Below, piece after piece: positions 1-60,853 of a stretch of DNA of 64,000 bases (the stretch's first letter is position 1; each line of letters opens with the position of its first letter). The notes beneath the pieces were generated by a model. The model had not been told where the DNA came from, did not search any database, and saw only the letters and a program-made list of their open reading frames with translations. The stretch is from Lentimicrobiaceae bacterium (GTDB lineage: Bacteria > Bacteroidota > Bacteroidia > Bacteroidales > JAGONC01). Where the stretch lies: the NCBI GenBank assembly GCA_017993235.1, contig JAGONC010000009.1, positions 1 to 64,000 on the forward strand, read 5' to 3'. Position numbers and translations under genes: made by a program.

Positions 1-162
1 AATGACGCGAAGCACGAAGTGCTGAGCAAATGACAGCGAAGCGTAATGACCATGAATGACGCGAAGCACGAAGTGCTGAGCAAATGACAGCGAAGCGTAA
101 TGACCATGAATGACGCGAAGCACGAAGTGCTGAGCAAATGACAGCGAAGCGTAATGACCATG
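1..162. repeat. Tandem repeat, three identical 54-bp units
   Basis: Three head-to-tail copies (1-54, 55-108, 109-162) that I read as identical. Each unit holds a short hairpin, GCAC-GAA-GTGC, inside the frame GCGA...TGAGCAAATGAC, followed by AATGACCATG. The array runs off the left edge, so its true copy number is unknown. There are no spacers of varying sequence, so it is not a CRISPR array. Related single copies lie at 163-216, 28812-28890, 58791-58860 and 60613-60670. Confidence 0.95.
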
Positions 163-216
163 AGTAACGCGAAGCACCCCTGACTTACGTCAGGATAAAC
201 TTCGCGCTGAGCATTT
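163..216. repeat. Variant copy of the GCGA-hairpin-GAGCAAAT element
   Basis: This directly follows the 54-bp array. The short stem is replaced by a longer nested hairpin: CCTGAC/GTCAGG around a TTAC loop, enclosed by GCGAAG/CTTCGC. The same variant occurs in reverse orientation at 28812-28890. The cinA stop codon lies in the last bases of the element, so the repeat abuts and supplies the 3' end of that gene. It could also act as a transcription terminator, though no clear U-run follows. Confidence 0.8.
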
Positions 217-5293: not shown

Positions 5294-7993
5294 ATGATTG
5301 CCTTACTTAATAAAGAAATCAGCAGTTTTTTAAATTCGCTGATCGGTTATGTGGCCATCATCGTATTTCTACTGATCGACAGCCTGTTTCTCTGGGTTTT
5401 TCCGGGTGATTTCAACATCCTGGATTTTGGTTATGCCTCCCTTGACAGTTTATTCATGATTGCGCCCTTTGTTTTTCTTTTCCTCATCCCGGCGATTACG
5501 ATGCGATCATTTGCCGAAGAAAAGCGAAGCGGAACCATTGAAATGATCCTGACCAAACCCTTAACTGACTTTCATATCCTTTTTGCCAAGTACCTTGCCG
5601 GTTTGCTTCTGGTCATTTTTTCCGTGCTTCCAACGTTGCTCTATGTGATCTCGGTTTACAGGCTGGGGCAGCCTGTCGGGAACCTTGACATGGGTGGCAC
5701 CTGGGGCTCTTATCTGGGTTTACTGTTTCTTGGAGCCAGTTTTGTGGCCATCGGGATCTTCGCCTCATCCCTGACCGAAAATCAGATCATTGCCTTTGTG
5801 GTCGCTGTTCTGTTGTGCGGATTTGCCTATCTCGGATTTGAGCTGATCTTTTCATTTGACCTGTTCGGAAGATTCGGGCTTTTTATCCAGTCGCTGGGCA
5901 TTCAGGCTCATTACGCCTCCATTAGCCGGGGTGTGATCGATACACGCGATGTGGTTTATTTTCTGAGTCTGATTTTTCTTTTCCTGACCCTGACCCTGCT
6001 GGTCATGGAGAGCCGGAGGTGGGAGGCGGGAGGCAGGAGGCAGGAGGCGGGCAGCAGTCAGCAGTCAGCAGTCAACAGTCAACAGTCAGCAGTCAGCAGT
6101 CAGCAGTCAGCAGCTTTGTCCTGCGAAGCGAAGCGAAGCAGGATCAAAAGTCAGCAGTCAGCAAGAGACGGCCAGCAGGAAATGCCAGGCAGCAGATGGT
6201 CTTCGAGTCTCCGAGTCTTCGGGTCTTCGGGTCGAAATGGAAATCTCAGAACCAGCAGTCTGATATCGTTCGGATTGGGATTGGTCATGATCATGGTTGT
6301 GAACATGATCAGTAAATATGCCTTTACCAGGATCGATCTGACGTCGGAGAAACGTTATTCCCTCTCCGAACCCACAAAAGAGATACTTCGGAACCTGGAT
6401 GACATCATTTACTTCAAGGTATACCTGGAAGGTGATTTTCCAGCCGGTTTCAAGCGGCTCAGCAATTCCGTAAAGGAGATCCTGGATGAATTCAGGGCTT
6501 ATTCCTCCAAAATCCAGTATGAGTTTATCAATCCCTCGGATGCCCAAACCCAGGCAGAAGTAAATGCCCGGTATGAAGAGCTGATCCGCAAGGGTTTAAA
6601 TCCAACGGATTTACAGGTTAAGACCAGCGATGGCTCCTCACAGCAGATCATTTTCCCCGGCGCGATCGTTTCGTACCGGTCGAAAGAACTGCCCCTCGAG
6701 TTTCTGCAAAGCCAGATCGGCCAGTCACCTGAAGAAGTACTCAACCATTCGGTACAATCGCTGGAGTATAACATTTCAAGCCTGATACACAGGCTCACCG
6801 TCACAGCCAAACCAAAGATCGCCTTTGTTGAGGGCCACGGGGAACTCAGCGAAATTGAAGTGTACGATATCACGGAGGCGCTCCGGGAATATTATCAGGT
6901 GGAGCGAATCAGGATCAATGAGAAGATCTTTGCACTGACGCAACGGGACACTGCGGCTGACGGAAGCATGGTCATCCGGAACATGTATGCTGCCATCATC
7001 ATAGCAAAACCGGATTCGGTATTCAGTGAAAAAGATAAATTCATCATCGATCAGTATATCATGCTGGGTGGAAAAGTCCTCTGGCTGATCGATCCCGTAC
7101 TGGCGACCATGGATAGTCTGGAAGCATCACCAACCACGATGGGCCTGGCCAATGACCTGAACCTTCAGGATATGCTTTTCCGGTACGGTGTCCGCCTTAA
7201 TCCTGATCTGCTCCTGGATCTGAATGCCCTGCCCATACGTATGGTGACAGGCTCAATCGGGGGACAGCCACAGATCAGCTTTGTGCCCTGGTTTTACTTT
7301 CCGGTCGTTTTTCCAACGTCCGGCCATCCCATGGTCCGCAATCTGAATGCAGTGATGACCTGTTTTGTAAGCAGCCTGGATACCATTGGGGTCGACAATA
7401 TCCATAAGACGATCCTGCTGACGACTTCGGAGTATACCCGAATCCTGCAGAGCCCTGTCCTGATTGATCTGCGCATAAGCCAGGAAGAGCCCGATCCGCT
7501 TCTGTACCGTTCGTCACATATACCCATCGCGGTTCTTCTGGAAGGGGAATTTGAGTCGGTATTCAATAACCGGATTCCACCCCAGATCCAGGACAGTCCG
7601 CTGATCGGTTTTAAAGAAAAGAGTGTTTCCACCGGGATGATCGTCGCCTCGGACGGAGACATTATCCGGAATCAGCTGCATGTGTCACAGGGGTATCCTT
7701 TACCTCTGGGATTTGATCAGTACACGCGGCAACAATTTGGTAACCGCGATTTTATCCTTAACGCTGTCAATTATCTCTGTGATGACTCAGGATTGATCGC
7801 CGCCCGTTCCAAAGATATCAAGCTGCGTTTACTGGATAAAACCAGGCTGACATCCGCCAGAACCACCATCCGGCTGATCAACACCCTGTTGCCGGTGGCT
7901 TTGATCCTTGTCTTCGCGATCGCCCGGAACTATATGCGTAAAAGAAAGTTTGGCCGTGTAAAAAGATCACTTTCACTACCTGGAACCTTATGA
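5294..7993 (+). CDS. gldFG: GldF-GldG fusion: ABC-2 permease joined to Gld-type periplasmic domain
   Basis: 899 residues. Residues 1-240 are an ABC-2 permease like GldF: about six membrane helices and the family stretch FAEEKRSGTIEMILTKPLTD. From about residue 325 it is GldG-like: a membrane helix, then RIDLTSEKRYSLSEPTKEIL, KVYLEGDFPAGFKRL, FVEGHGELSE, and a C-terminal membrane helix before a basic tail (NYMRKRKFGR). In Flavobacterium, GldA/F/G form a transporter required for gliding; Bacteroidales homologues often have no known gliding role. The joining segment (about 240-322) is low complexity, with QQSAVSS heptads encoded by a DNA repeat also found between genes. No ATPase (gldA) is adjacent. 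Downstream DUF4340 overlaps by ATGA. Either a true fusion or a repeat-driven merger of two genes. Confidence 0.85.
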   Translation: MIALLNKEISSFLNSLIGYVAIIVFLLIDSLFLWVFPGDFNILDFGYASLDSLFMIAPFVFLFLIPAITMRSFAEEKRSGTIEMILTKPLTDFHILFAKYLAGLLLVIFSVLPTLLYVISVYRLGQPVGNLDMGGTWGSYLGLLFLGASFVAIGIFASSLTENQIIAFVVAVLLCGFAYLGFELIFSFDLFGRFGLFIQSLGIQAHYASISRGVIDTRDVVYFLSLIFLFLTLTLLVMESRRWEAGGRRQEAGSSQQSAVNSQQSAVSSQQSAALSCEAKRSRIKSQQSARDGQQEMPGSRWSSSLRVFGSSGRNGNLRTSSLISFGLGLVMIMVVNMISKYAFTRIDLTSEKRYSLSEPTKEILRNLDDIIYFKVYLEGDFPAGFKRLSNSVKEILDEFRAYSSKIQYEFINPSDAQTQAEVNARYEELIRKGLNPTDLQVKTSDGSSQQIIFPGAIVSYRSKELPLEFLQSQIGQSPEEVLNHSVQSLEYNISSLIHRLTVTAKPKIAFVEGHGELSEIEVYDITEALREYYQVERIRINEKIFALTQRDTAADGSMVIRNMYAAIIIAKPDSVFSEKDKFIIDQYIMLGGKVLWLIDPVLATMDSLEASPTTMGLANDLNLQDMLFRYGVRLNPDLLLDLNALPIRMVTGSIGGQPQISFVPWFYFPVVFPTSGHPMVRNLNAVMTCFVSSLDTIGVDNIHKTILLTTSEYTRILQSPVLIDLRISQEEPDPLLYRSSHIPIAVLLEGEFESVFNNRIPPQIQDSPLIGFKEKSVSTGMIVASDGDIIRNQLHVSQGYPLPLGFDQYTRQQFGNRDFILNAVNYLCDDSGLIAARSKDIKLRLLDKTRLTSARTTIRLINTLLPVALILVFAIARNYMRKRKFGRVKRSLSLPGTL
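6010..6240. repeat. Repeat tract inside gldFG: GGAGGC run, CAGTCAG/A heptads, hairpin
   Basis: Bases 6010-6051 are GGAGGC-type repeats, 6052-6114 are about nine heptads CAGTCAG/CAGTCAA, 6119-6143 form the hairpin TCCTGC/GCAGGA around GAAGCGAAGCGAA, and 6200-6232 hold CGAGTCTTCGGGTC repeats. The heptad is the same as in intergenic tracts at 58749-58787 and 60737-60776. Because 3 x 7 is divisible by 3, it stays open as a 7-residue peptide repeat. Confidence 0.9.
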
Positions 7994-36341: not shown

Positions 36342-39323
36342 ATGACTGTCAATCCCAAAATCCTCAATTTAAAGCGGTACTATTTTTCCGATACACCCTT
36401 CATCAACCTGATGAAGAAACGTATCTATCACGTACTTCTGGTGTCCAGCTCATACGATGCATTCATTCTCGAGGGTGACGGAAGGATCGATGAACAGATC
36501 TTTAACGAGTACGTGGCGCTCAACCTCAGGTATCCCCCACAGTTCATGATCACTCACTCAGGCGACGAGGCCCTCGATATCCTCGAGAATGAAAGCATTG
36601 ACCTGATCATCATCATGCTGAGCGCCGACAACGTAGGGACATTTGACCTGGCAAAACAGATCAAAAACAAATATCCAAGGAAACCCATCATTGTCCTCAC
36701 TCCTTTTTCACGCGAGGTCAGCCTGAAACTGAATGAAGAAGATTACAGCTATATTGACTATTTTTTCAGCTGGCTGGGGAATCCGGATATTTTACTGGCG
36801 ATCATCAAGCTGATCGAAGACAAAATGAACGTGGAGCACGACGTAAATGAGGTGGGCGTGCAGGCGATCCTCCTGGTAGAAGATTCCATCCGTTTTTATT
36901 CCAGTTACCTTCCCAACATTTACAAGATCATTTTCAAGCAATCCAAGGCCTTCCAGCTGGAGGGCCTCAATGAGCACCAGCAGATGCTCCGGATGAGGGG
37001 GAGACCCAAGATCCTGCTGGCAACAAACTACAATGAGGCAGTTACCCTGTACGAAAAATATAAGAACAACCTGCTTGGGATCATCACCGATGTGAGTTAT
37101 GAACGGAACGGGGAAATGGATAAAGAAGCAGGGATCATGCTGTGCACAAAAGTCAAGAAGGATGACATTTTCATGCCGTTGCTGCTGCAAAGTTCAGATG
37201 CTGAAAATGAAAAGCTGGCAAAAGAGCTGAAGGTCGGTTTTCTCAACAAAACCTCGAAAACCCTGTCAATCGAACTGAGGAATTTCATCATTGAATTTTT
37301 TGCTTTTGGAGATTTTGTCTTCCTGGACCCGGAGACCATGGAGGAGATCAACCGCGCCCCCGACCTGAAGACCCTGCAGATGAAAATGTTCGAAGTACCG
37401 GATGATTCGCTGCTGTATCACATAACCCATAACCACATTTCCAAGTGGCTTCGTGCGCGGGCATTGTTTCCCCTAGCAGATCTGCTGCGCGATCTGCGGA
37501 TGTCCGACTTTGACAACGACCTGGATGCCATTCGCCGCTTCATCTTCGATGCCATCGGAAGTTACCGCATGTACAAATCCCGGGGAGTCATTGCTGAATT
37601 CAACAAGGAAAGCTTTGATGAGTACCTCAGCTTCACGCGCATCGGCAGTGGCTCCATCGGAGGTAAGGCACGCGGATTGGCCTTCCTTGACTCCCTGATC
37701 AAAAAGTACCGGTTTCTCGATAAATACGACGATATCATTGTTTCCATTCCCAAGACAGTCGTCCTTTGCACCGATGTATTTGACGAATTCATCGAACAAA
37801 ATGATCTTTATAAAATCGCGCTGTCTGATGCAACCAATGAACAGATCCTGGAGCAGTTTGTAAAAGCCAGGTTGCCATTCCGGATCCACGAAGACCTGTA
37901 TACACTGATCAGTTATATCAGGAAACCACTGGCCATACGATCATCAAGTCTGCTGGAAGATAGTCATTATCAGCCATTTGCAGGTATCTACAATACATAC
38001 ATGATCCCTTATGTCGAGAATGACGAGCGGTTGATGATCCGAATCCTGAGCGAAGCGATCAAATGCGTGTATGCTTCGGCTTTTTTTACCGACAGCAAGT
38101 CATACATGACAGCAACCTCCAATGTAATCGATGAAGAAAAAATGGCCATTGTGCTGCAGATGGTATGCGGTGAGAAATACAATAATCGTTTTTATCCGTC
38201 GATCTCGGGCGTAGCACGCTCCATCAACTTTTATCCGATTGAACCCGAGAAGCCGGAGGATGGCATTGCCAATATCGCTTTTGGCCTGGGTAAATATGTG
38301 GTGGAAGGAGGGGTTACCCTACGGTTTTCGCCCAAACATCCCAAAAAAATTCTCCAGCTCTCCACCCCCGAGATGGCCCTCAAGGAGACCCAGAAACTCT
38401 TCTATGCGCTGAATCTGGACGCTTCCAGCTTCAAACCCGACGTGGATGATGCGATCAACCTGGTCAAAATACCTGTAAATGAGGCTGATAAGGACAGCTG
38501 CCTGAAGAACGTTGCCTCGACCTGGGATTTTGAAAACAATATTCTGCGCGACGGAATCCAGCTTCCGGGACGGCGTGTGATCACCTTTTCACAAATATTG
38601 AATCATAATGTATTTCCCCTGGCAGAGATCATTCATATGGCACTGGAAATGGGTTCTCAGGAAATGAGCCGCCCGGTGGAAATTGAGTTTGCCGTTGATC
38701 TTAATCCGGTGAAGGGAGAGCCCAAGGTCTTTAACCTGCTGCAGATCAGACCCATCGTCGACAACACGGAAGTCATCGAAGAAAAGCTGGACATGATCCC
38801 CTATGAAAAAACCATCCTGTACTCCCGGGCAGCCATGGGAAATGGAATCCTTAAAAACATTCAGGATATTGTTTATGTAAAACCTCAGGCTTTCCATGCC
38901 AGCAAAACACAGGATATCGCATCGAAAGTCAGCCGGCTGAATGAGTGGTTCATCGGGCAGAAAAAAAATTATGTACTGGTTGGACCGGGACGATGGGGAT
39001 CTGCCGATCCCTGGCTGGGCATCCCCGTCAAATGGCCTCAGATCTCGTCAGCCAGGCTGATCGTTGAATCAGGGCTTTCCCATTACCGGATTGATCCCAG
39101 CCAGGGAACGCACTTTTTCCAGAATCTGACGTCGTTCAGGGTGGGGTATTTCACGATCAATCCCTATATTAAGGATGGGCATTATGATGTTGACTACCTT
39201 TCCACCCTGCCGGCAGTATACGAAGATGAATACCTGCGCCATGTCTGCTTCGGTCATCCTCTCCAGATCTTCATTGACGGCAGAAATAAACTGGGCGTGG
39301 TGATGAAGCCGGAGCAAATATGA
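36342..39323 (+). CDS. REC-REC protein with PEP-synthase ATP-grasp domain (paralogue of 15656)
   Basis: 993 residues. It lacks the GAF part but otherwise follows the protein at 15656. REC1 (about 25-150) has no phosphoacceptor at the expected place (DLIIIMLSAD). REC2 (about 170-310) keeps LLVEDS, ITDVSYE (Asp about 250), LLQSSDAENEK and LNKTSK. The PEP/pyruvate-binding ATP-grasp domain shows SIGGKARGLAF (438), LAIRSSSLLEDS (530) and VEIEFAVDL (779). The C-terminal domain has YVLVGPGRWGSADPW (876) and GTHFFQNLTSFRVGYF. There is no phosphohistidine or PEP-binding TIM barrel, so full PEP synthase activity is not expected. Its place beside a NuoEFG-like operon, matching module A, argues for a functional link. 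Confidence 0.82.
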   Translation: MTVNPKILNLKRYYFSDTPFINLMKKRIYHVLLVSSSYDAFILEGDGRIDEQIFNEYVALNLRYPPQFMITHSGDEALDILENESIDLIIIMLSADNVGTFDLAKQIKNKYPRKPIIVLTPFSREVSLKLNEEDYSYIDYFFSWLGNPDILLAIIKLIEDKMNVEHDVNEVGVQAILLVEDSIRFYSSYLPNIYKIIFKQSKAFQLEGLNEHQQMLRMRGRPKILLATNYNEAVTLYEKYKNNLLGIITDVSYERNGEMDKEAGIMLCTKVKKDDIFMPLLLQSSDAENEKLAKELKVGFLNKTSKTLSIELRNFIIEFFAFGDFVFLDPETMEEINRAPDLKTLQMKMFEVPDDSLLYHITHNHISKWLRARALFPLADLLRDLRMSDFDNDLDAIRRFIFDAIGSYRMYKSRGVIAEFNKESFDEYLSFTRIGSGSIGGKARGLAFLDSLIKKYRFLDKYDDIIVSIPKTVVLCTDVFDEFIEQNDLYKIALSDATNEQILEQFVKARLPFRIHEDLYTLISYIRKPLAIRSSSLLEDSHYQPFAGIYNTYMIPYVENDERLMIRILSEAIKCVYASAFFTDSKSYMTATSNVIDEEKMAIVLQMVCGEKYNNRFYPSISGVARSINFYPIEPEKPEDGIANIAFGLGKYVVEGGVTLRFSPKHPKKILQLSTPEMALKETQKLFYALNLDASSFKPDVDDAINLVKIPVNEADKDSCLKNVASTWDFENNILRDGIQLPGRRVITFSQILNHNVFPLAEIIHMALEMGSQEMSRPVEIEFAVDLNPVKGEPKVFNLLQIRPIVDNTEVIEEKLDMIPYEKTILYSRAAMGNGILKNIQDIVYVKPQAFHASKTQDIASKVSRLNEWFIGQKKNYVLVGPGRWGSADPWLGIPVKWPQISSARLIVESGLSHYRIDPSQGTHFFQNLTSFRVGYFTINPYIKDGHYDVDYLSTLPAVYEDEYLRHVCFGHPLQIFIDGRNKLGVVMKPEQI

Positions 39324-39370
39324 GAGGAGAGAGGAGAAAGGAGAGAGGAGAGATGAGAGATAAAGGAAGG
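39322..39370. repeat. GA-rich GAGAGGA repeat
   Basis: A purine-only run made of GAGAGGA/GGAGA units starts on the stop codon of the preceding gene. It opens a false in-frame start at 39320 that would give the following protein a nonsense leader (MRGERRKERGEMRDKGRS). Confidence 0.8.
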
Positions 39371-39373
39371 AGT

Positions 39374-57591: not shown

Positions 57592-58794
57592 ATGAAGTTG
57601 TTCATGTTATTGCCCAGGGTACCTTTCCCGATTGAAAAGGGTGACAAGCTTAGGGCGTACCATCAATTGCGCTACTTATCCAGAACCAACGACATCATTC
57701 TCTGTGCACTGAATGACACCAGACTTCCCGATGGGACGCTGGAAGCGCTCCGGCCCTTCTGCAGGGAGATCCACGTGATCCACCTTGCCCGGCCGGGAGT
57801 CCTTTTTAATATTCTCCGGGCCTTTTTGACCGGTAAACCTCTTCAAGTAGGCTATTTCTATTCAAACCGTGCCCGGAAACAAATCCGACAGGTGATTTCA
57901 TCGGTCAGGCCCGACCACATCTATTGCCAGCTGGTACGGGTGGCAGAATATGTAAAAGACCAGCCCATTCCCAAAACGCTCGACTACCAGGATGTCTTCT
58001 CCAAAGGAGTGGAGCGGCGCATCCGTACCTCTCCCTTTTACATGAAACCTGTCCTTAAAATGGAATACAGGAGACTGCTGAAATATGAAGCGTATATTTT
58101 TGACTGCTTCGATCACAAAACGATCATCTCTCACCCCGACCGTGACCTGATCCCGCGGGCCGACAGTGAAAAAATCGTGGTCATACCCAATGGTGTCGAC
58201 AGGGATTATTTCTGTCCGCAAACCGTTGAAAAAGAATACGATACAGTGTTTATCGGCAACATGGGGTATCCTCCCAATGTTCAGGCTGCCGAGTTCCTTG
58301 CCCTTAAGATCATGCCCCTGGTGCAGAAACGGTTCCCTGCCGCACGGCTCGTACTGGCAGGTGCCAATCCCCACGCCCGGGTGCTTGCCCTGGCTTCCGA
58401 TACGGTCAGGGTCACCGGATGGGTGGAAGATATACGGTCGTACTATGCCAGGGCAAAGATCTTCATTGCACCCATGATGATCGGTACAGGACTCCAGAAT
58501 AAGCTGCTGGAAGCCATGGCCATGAAGATCCCCTGCATCACCTCCCCCCTCGCCAACCAGGCGCTGGCGGCAGAAGATGGTAAGGAAATCCTGGTCGGGA
58601 GCTCAGCGGAAGATTTCGCCGGACATGTGATCCGCCTGCTGGAAGATCCGCAAAAAGCTGATCAGTTGGCCCAGGCGGGTTTCCTTTTCGTGAAAACGCA
58701 TTTCGACTGGGAATCGGCCACCGCAAAGCTGGAGGCGTTGATGAAGAAGTCAGCAGTCAGCAGTCAGCAGTCAACAGTCAGCAGTCGAACGTAA
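57592..58794 (+). CDS. Glycosyltransferase (GT4, TIGR03087-like)
   Basis: 400 residues. The start MLLPRVPFPIEKGDKLRAYH and YFYSNRARKQI resemble the PEP-CTERM/XrtA-associated glycosyltransferase family. The donor site is VIPNGVDRDYF, FIGNMGYPPNVQAAEFLALKIMP, GWVEDIRSYYARAKIFIAPM, and GTGLQNKLLEAMAMKIPCI. No exosortase gene is present here, so the XrtA link is by similarity only. The last 15 residues (KKSAVSSQQSTVSSRT) come from the CAGTCAG heptad repeat, so the native C-terminus has been extended. Confidence 0.86.
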   Translation: MKLFMLLPRVPFPIEKGDKLRAYHQLRYLSRTNDIILCALNDTRLPDGTLEALRPFCREIHVIHLARPGVLFNILRAFLTGKPLQVGYFYSNRARKQIRQVISSVRPDHIYCQLVRVAEYVKDQPIPKTLDYQDVFSKGVERRIRTSPFYMKPVLKMEYRRLLKYEAYIFDCFDHKTIISHPDRDLIPRADSEKIVVIPNGVDRDYFCPQTVEKEYDTVFIGNMGYPPNVQAAEFLALKIMPLVQKRFPAARLVLAGANPHARVLALASDTVRVTGWVEDIRSYYARAKIFIAPMMIGTGLQNKLLEAMAMKIPCITSPLANQALAAEDGKEILVGSSAEDFAGHVIRLLEDPQKADQLAQAGFLFVKTHFDWESATAKLEALMKKSAVSSQQSTVSSRT

Positions 58795-60613: not shown

Positions 60614-60853
60614 CCAATAACCATGAATGGCGCGAGGCGCTGAAAGCGCCGAGCAAATATCCATAAATCACCCTTTTACGAATGCGTAACTCCAACCTCG
60701 AATTCAAGATCAAGATCAACCGCACGGCGCTTTACTAGTCAGCAGTCAGCAGTCAACAGTCAACAGTCAACAGTCATTGATTGGCCGTAGGCCATTAAGT
60801 ATTGTAGATCAGCAGTCAGCAATTTAACAATTTGACAATTTAACAACAGAACA
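60613..60853. repeat. Composite repeat region between hisS and the aromatic lyase gene
   Basis: This 240-bp gap holds, in order: the hairpin element GCGA-GGCGC-TGAAA-GCGCC-GAGCAAAT with AATAACCATGAATGGC (60613-60670); CAGTCAG/A heptads (60737-60776 and 60809-60819); the palindrome TTGGCCGTAGGCCATTAAG (60781-60799, inverse of 44964-44984); and AACAATTTGACAATTTAAC repeats (60821-60850). Bases 60671-60736 show nothing I recognise. No clear TAnnTTTG promoter. Confidence 0.85.

Follow-up and report, generated by a model that had tools for sequence, protein, structure and literature searches.

How do two neighbouring genes come to be read as one at a place where the DNA between them consists of short repeats? 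This question is raised by a reading frame of a Lentimicrobiaceae bacterium (assembly GCA_017993235.1), which lies in the first 64,000 nucleotides of contig JAGONC010000009.1 (the window, that is, the whole stretch of DNA analysed here) and joins a GldF permease domain to a GldG domain through a linker coded by tandem repeats. Gene fusions are usually attributed to a deletion or to a point mutation that removes a stop codon. In the three related species described here, the bridge between the two coding regions was very probably contributed by a dispersed tandem repeat, and sister genera with split genes are available for comparison.

The gldFG reading frame and its linker

The single open reading frame (ORF) encodes GldF, the linker and GldG in 899 amino acids on the forward strand and is open throughout (5294..7993). 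Residues 1-240 (5294..6013) match the GldF permease profile TIGR03518 with 319.7 bits (cut-off 288.5), and residues 323-886 (6260..7951) match the GldG profile TIGR03521 with 617 bits (cut-off 389.85). The curated whole-protein cut-offs of both profiles are passed within one frame, and each profile is covered over nearly its full length. At the level of the sequence, the fusion is real; the original prediction, made from the DNA letters of this stretch, that gldF and gldG are joined in frame via repeat DNA is therefore confirmed by the open frame and the two matched domains.

The linker comprises 80 residues, all coded on the forward strand by two kinds of heptads, a hairpin with a 6-bp stem and an octamer run. 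It starts with 5.3 copies of GGAGGCR (6015..6051), which begin in the last codons of the SRxW motif conserved in GldF, followed by 8.9 copies of CAGTCAR (6052..6113, 96% match), which are translated into peptides of the type SSQQSAV/SSQQSTVN. Further downstream are the hairpin element TCCTGCGAAGCGAAGCGAAGCAGGATCA (6119..6146, stem TCCTGC...GCAGGA), two more AGTCAGC units (6149..6163) and the octamer run GTCTTCGA (6199..6233). Two further copies of the hairpin element are found in the genome, one of which is located within the linker of MutS2. The GGAGGC runs, the CAGTCAG/A heptads and the TCCTGC/GCAGGA hairpin had all been described correctly (6015-6163). In the window, CAGTCARCAGTCA is matched 18 times with at most one mismatch versus 0.08 expected matches, and GGAGGCRGGAGGC four times versus 0.09 expected; shuffled sequence yields practically none of the linker repeat patterns.

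Since seven is not a multiple of three, each frame of the heptad array passes through the identical seven codons, and AGTCAGC is read as SQQSAVS in all three frames. The phase in which the repeat enters a gene is thus irrelevant, and only its total length matters. The sense strand of the array lacks stop codons in every frame, which bears out and refines the earlier claim that a stop-free 7-bp unit is read as a 7-residue peptide repeat; the reverse strand of AGTCAGC and AGTCAAC contains TGA in all three frames. Being stop-free is in itself nothing special, as around 69% of all 7-mers lack a stop codon on a given strand.

An AlphaFold2 model based on 40 sequences reached a mean predicted local distance difference test (pLDDT) score of 71.5 and a predicted template modelling (pTM) score of 0.53. 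Residues 243-330, which include the linker, have pLDDT values below 50 and are flanked by two better-modelled parts; the model agrees with a flexible tether and with nothing beyond that. Most likely, GldFG is made as one chain, whose permease and GldG subunit would be connected by a flexible tether of 34-80 residues, depending on the species, presumably on the cytoplasmic side. The GldFG transporter itself is ordinary. In Flavobacterium johnsoniae, GldF and GldG are both required for the membrane localisation of the ATPase GldA; the same two families are, however, encoded there by the separate genes Fjoh_2722 and Fjoh_2721, according to the available text of the report (PMC9127263). In the available parts of the reports retrieved by a literature search on a fused GldF/GldG, no such fusion was found.

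Distribution of the fusion

An in-frame fusion was found in each of the three sampled species of the genus, namely in the genome studied here (G000) and in G001 and G002, and each has its own repeat-built linker. The distance between GldF residue 245 and GldG residue 326 is 240 nucleotides (nt) in G000, 102 nt in G001 and 135 nt in G002. Heptads occur in all three linkers, their variants and copy numbers differ between the species, and the hairpin element is duplicated in G002. The protein flanking the linker is 76-84% identical. The idea that the open frame is due to chance or to a quirk of one genome assembly was rejected, as three assemblies agree. All three species also carry a second gldF/gldG-like pair, which is repeat-free and split in each of them. 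Automatic open-frame output had suggested that this second pair is fused in G001 and G002, which was rejected because a stop codon separates the two genes in the DNA; for this reason, all fusion counts rest on a stop-aware reading of the junctions, which replaced the automatic output.

Using this reading, the junction could be classified in 30 of 41 searched genomes, which had both genes in the fetched locus. The remaining genomes lacked gldF in the fetched locus (G014, G024, G040), had not been fetched (G019) or had no full pair (G012, G015, G017, G025, G027, G029, G032). The genes are fused in seven of the 30 genomes and split in 23. Whereas the genus is fused with repeats in three of three species, G003 and G004, the two genomes of sister genera, have split genes without a repeat linker, and their gldF genes stop at the same SRKW motif after which the repeat begins in the genus. 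A non-repetitive linker in fused genes of all relatives, the pattern that the original prediction had named as speaking against it, is therefore not observed. An independent GTDB scan gave 80 loci, nine of which had no gldF match. Among the 71 loci with both genes, 70 are split, and the sole fused locus belongs to one of the three genus species (G002, locus L090); the split pairs are mostly tight, with 41 of the 71 loci having genes that overlap or lie at most 10 nt apart. Given the 23 of 30 split genomes and the 70 of 71 split GTDB loci, the notion that the fusion is general to the order was rejected, and its repeat-built form is restricted to this genus among what was searched.

Repeats can also be found at unfused borders. 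In another Bacteroidales genome, an unrelated tandem array of the GTTGAAGA type is located between split gldF and gldG genes (L151:2160-2300), and the loci L109 and L110 harbour other repeat-like sequences between the unfused genes. The gldF/gldG border thus tolerates repeats; unlike in these unfused lineages, the repeat in this genus happened to be open in frame.

The heptad family and the origin of the fusion

Exact triple heptads are present in all five genomes of the family and in three of 36 other genomes. The exact arrays of G000 (30) and G002 (21) were all fetched and classified, with genes called by a simple, purpose-made caller. Fourteen of the 51 arrays lie in sense ORFs, among them those in the sulfate permease (L188) and RsmA (L222) genes, two have a stop within their first units, and 18 lie elsewhere, including one G000 array (L176) that directly follows the stop of an uncalled gene. 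The other 17 begin 0-21 nt past the stop of a sense gene (17/35 intergenic arrays, expected fraction 4-5%), which is an enrichment over other intergenic positions of the same stretches with P values of 1.4e-9 (10/20) and 3.0e-6 (7/15). No array lies antisense within an ORF; however, this says little, since an ORF would be terminated by the TGA codons that antisense CAGTCAR carries in all frames.

The repeat in the linker had been described as a kind otherwise found between genes, and it belongs to a dispersed family whose arrays cluster behind sense-gene stops. In the window, the intergenic placement holds for the heptads at 60736..60775, which lie on the forward strand strictly between two ORFs, but not for those at 58747..58786, which on the same strand code in frame for the C-terminal end of a glycosyltransferase ORF (57592-58794).

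From the family-specific repeat and the contrast between the fused genus and the split sister genera, it seems probable that repeat invasion at the gldF/gldG border built the fusion on the branch to this genus. The mechanism put forward in the original prediction, in which a repeat insertion fused the genes, is thereby well supported. On this branch, a dispersed heptad element would have settled across the 3' end of gldF, so that the gldF stop was removed or overrun and the reading continued in the frame of gldG; this is conceivable because the sense strand of the array is stop-free and gives the same peptide in every frame. Afterwards, the repeat content may have turned over in each species, while the total length stayed a multiple of three. 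The repeat would thus have preceded the fusion.

Several points weigh against this scenario. Compact fusions without repeats are found in four of 27 genomes outside the genus, which belong to other families (G006, G023, G034 and G036), so that fusion as such is not new. An in-frame ATG in G000 (at 6182) and another at the front of the G002 linker could each start GldG separately. The genus sample consists of three species, the assemblies are drafts, in which repeat length is easily mis-assembled, and the background for the enrichment behind stops depends on the purpose-made gene caller.

The repeat-free fusions in other families suggest that a plain loss of the stop, as seen in other Bacteroidales, possibly fused the genes before the repeats invaded a tolerant linker. 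The repeats have also demonstrably entered linkers and loops of other established proteins such as MutS2, the SRAP peptidase and an acetoacetyl-CoA synthetase (see below), which points in the same direction. This order of events is nevertheless rather unlikely: within the family, no fusion that lacks the repeats is known, the two occur together in all three species, and the strong preference of the arrays for stop codons gives the repeat a direct way of fusing genes.

Less likely still is that two proteins continue to be made, with the frame open merely via the stop-free repeat and GldG started from an internal codon. Nothing terminates GldF ahead of GldG in any of the three species, and the three linker lengths are all divisible by three, which has a chance probability of 1 in 27. 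As the repeat is stop-free in all frames, an open array is weak coding evidence, and an internal start is offered in G000 by the ATG downstream of the arrays (6182..6184, forward strand) and in G002 by an in-frame ATG and GTG. The G000 codon, however, is not conserved in G001, which contains no in-frame ATG, GTG or TTG between the GldF end and the GldG membrane helix, so that its GldG has no ordinary start of its own. Translation of GldFG as a single chain is likely.

A contingency locus, in which slippage by one unit toggles GldG off and on, appears highly improbable. Nearly nine near-perfect copies of a 7-bp unit are present, the other two frames end 155 and 207 nt beyond the array, and a domain of mutS is out of frame past an array in G000 and in frame in the other four family genomes (see below). 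However, the units carry many G/A substitutions at position 7 and do not form a pure tract, and gldFG is in frame in all three species even though their linkers differ by up to 138 nt, so that the earlier suggestion that copy-number change splits and rejoins the genes is not supported. A false fusion through collapsed or mis-counted repeats in draft assemblies (91 contigs in G000) can be dismissed as extremely improbable, since three independent assemblies show an open frame with different linkers and the array here spans about 62 bp.

Heptads in other genes and related repeat systems

Besides the gldF/gldG border, arrays are found in several conserved genes of the same genomes. In MutS2, an array is located between MutS domain V and the Smr part, at a site that is occupied by an ordinary charged linker in the sister genera. 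A SRAP (abasic-site) peptidase (L173, L214, L215, L216) contains a repeat-coded loop insert after the motif FYEWKR/FFEWKR in all three genus species, and this loop is short in the sister genome G004. An insert near the front of the AMP-binding domain was found in all three species in a gene with Pfam matches to ACAS_N and AMP-binding (L237, L238, L239, L240, L241), which we take to encode an acetoacetyl-CoA synthetase. It consists of heptads and the hairpin in G001 and G002 and of a different repeat-like sequence in G000, and nothing is inserted in G003 and G004; the site thus appears to be one of repeat turnover. Further arrays lie at the C-termini of a FabH-like enzyme, an ABC ATPase and a glycosyltransferase. 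The in-frame inserts in conserved enzymes provide a testable natural series from repeat DNA to protein.

In mutS, the array separates the MutS core from the C-terminal domain. This domain is in frame with a linker in G001-G004; in G000 (L190, G000:C57:53000-57200), it is out of frame past a ten-heptad array (2070-2137) and a G-rich run. The shift could be due to an assembly error or to a change in the G-rich part beside the heptads, and mutS is apparently the one example in this assembly of an array that throws a gene out of frame. In G001, a TAG codon interrupts the first half of mutS (L236 / L205). Both defects may be true lesions or assembly errors. It is a very doubtful proposition that family-specific, frame-indifferent heptads spread behind stops and into core-gene loops, weld neighbours such as gldF and gldG and, by slippage, reversibly shift the C-terminal domain of MutS into and out of frame; if this were true, the element would affect mismatch repair in the very organism that carries it.

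Both heptamer arrays close to stop codons and repeats inserted in frame have been published before, and the comparisons that follow extend as far as the available text of each report. The G-rich heptameric repeats of Xanthomonas and Nostoc, with the units GGGAATC and GGGGAYT, are under-represented in coding regions (PMC4692102). Like the heptads described here, they are dispersed 7-bp tandem units that are placed in sense orientation close behind stop codons and occupy the same gene borders in related species with differing length and sequence. Their units, which are able to form G-quadruplexes, differ from CAGTCAR and GGAGGCR, and a gene fusion was not found described in the available part of that report. 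Arrays of the heptamer TAACTGA, which occur in Beggiatoaceae, Cyanobacteria and some Bacteroidetes, lie for the most part shortly ahead of start codons (PMC4679880). They are likewise stop-free in one orientation, some overlap the stop codon of the preceding gene, and some are translated within ORFs but outside conserved domains; their unit, however, differs from CAGTCAR and GGAGGCR, and the joining of two conserved genes was not found described in the text available.

Rickettsia palindromic elements and other small mobile repeats are palindromes of roughly 100-200 bp (PMC2229807), which resemble the present case as in-frame inserts in genes of conserved proteins that tolerate them. The SRAP and synthetase inserts share this property, being in-frame insertions with repeat-free relatives (G004 for the former, G003 and G004 for the latter). 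The Rickettsia elements are long palindromes with terminal inverted repeats, whereas here only a 6-bp stem lies inside tandem heptads. Finally, intragenic tandem repeats are exemplified by tolA of Escherichia coli, in which strains differ in the number of copies of a coding tandem unit (PMC3477136); the variation studied there is in frame within one gene, while the repeat here is located at a gene border.

A few smaller observations concern individual repeats. The array at the front of the RsmA ORF (L222) probably lies upstream of the true start. The triple heptad match inside the sulfate permease ORF (L188:1394-1412) codes for SQSTVNSQAG and looks like a possible array seed; presumably, it is a native motif of the sulfate permease family. 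In the window, GAGAGGA heptads (39320-39373) directly follow the stop of the ORF 36342-39323 and lie in the reading frame in which the next ORF begins. A 54-bp tandem repeat at the beginning of the window (1-177; 3.3 copies, 98% identical) is similar in its letters to sequences behind genes at 58791 and 60615.
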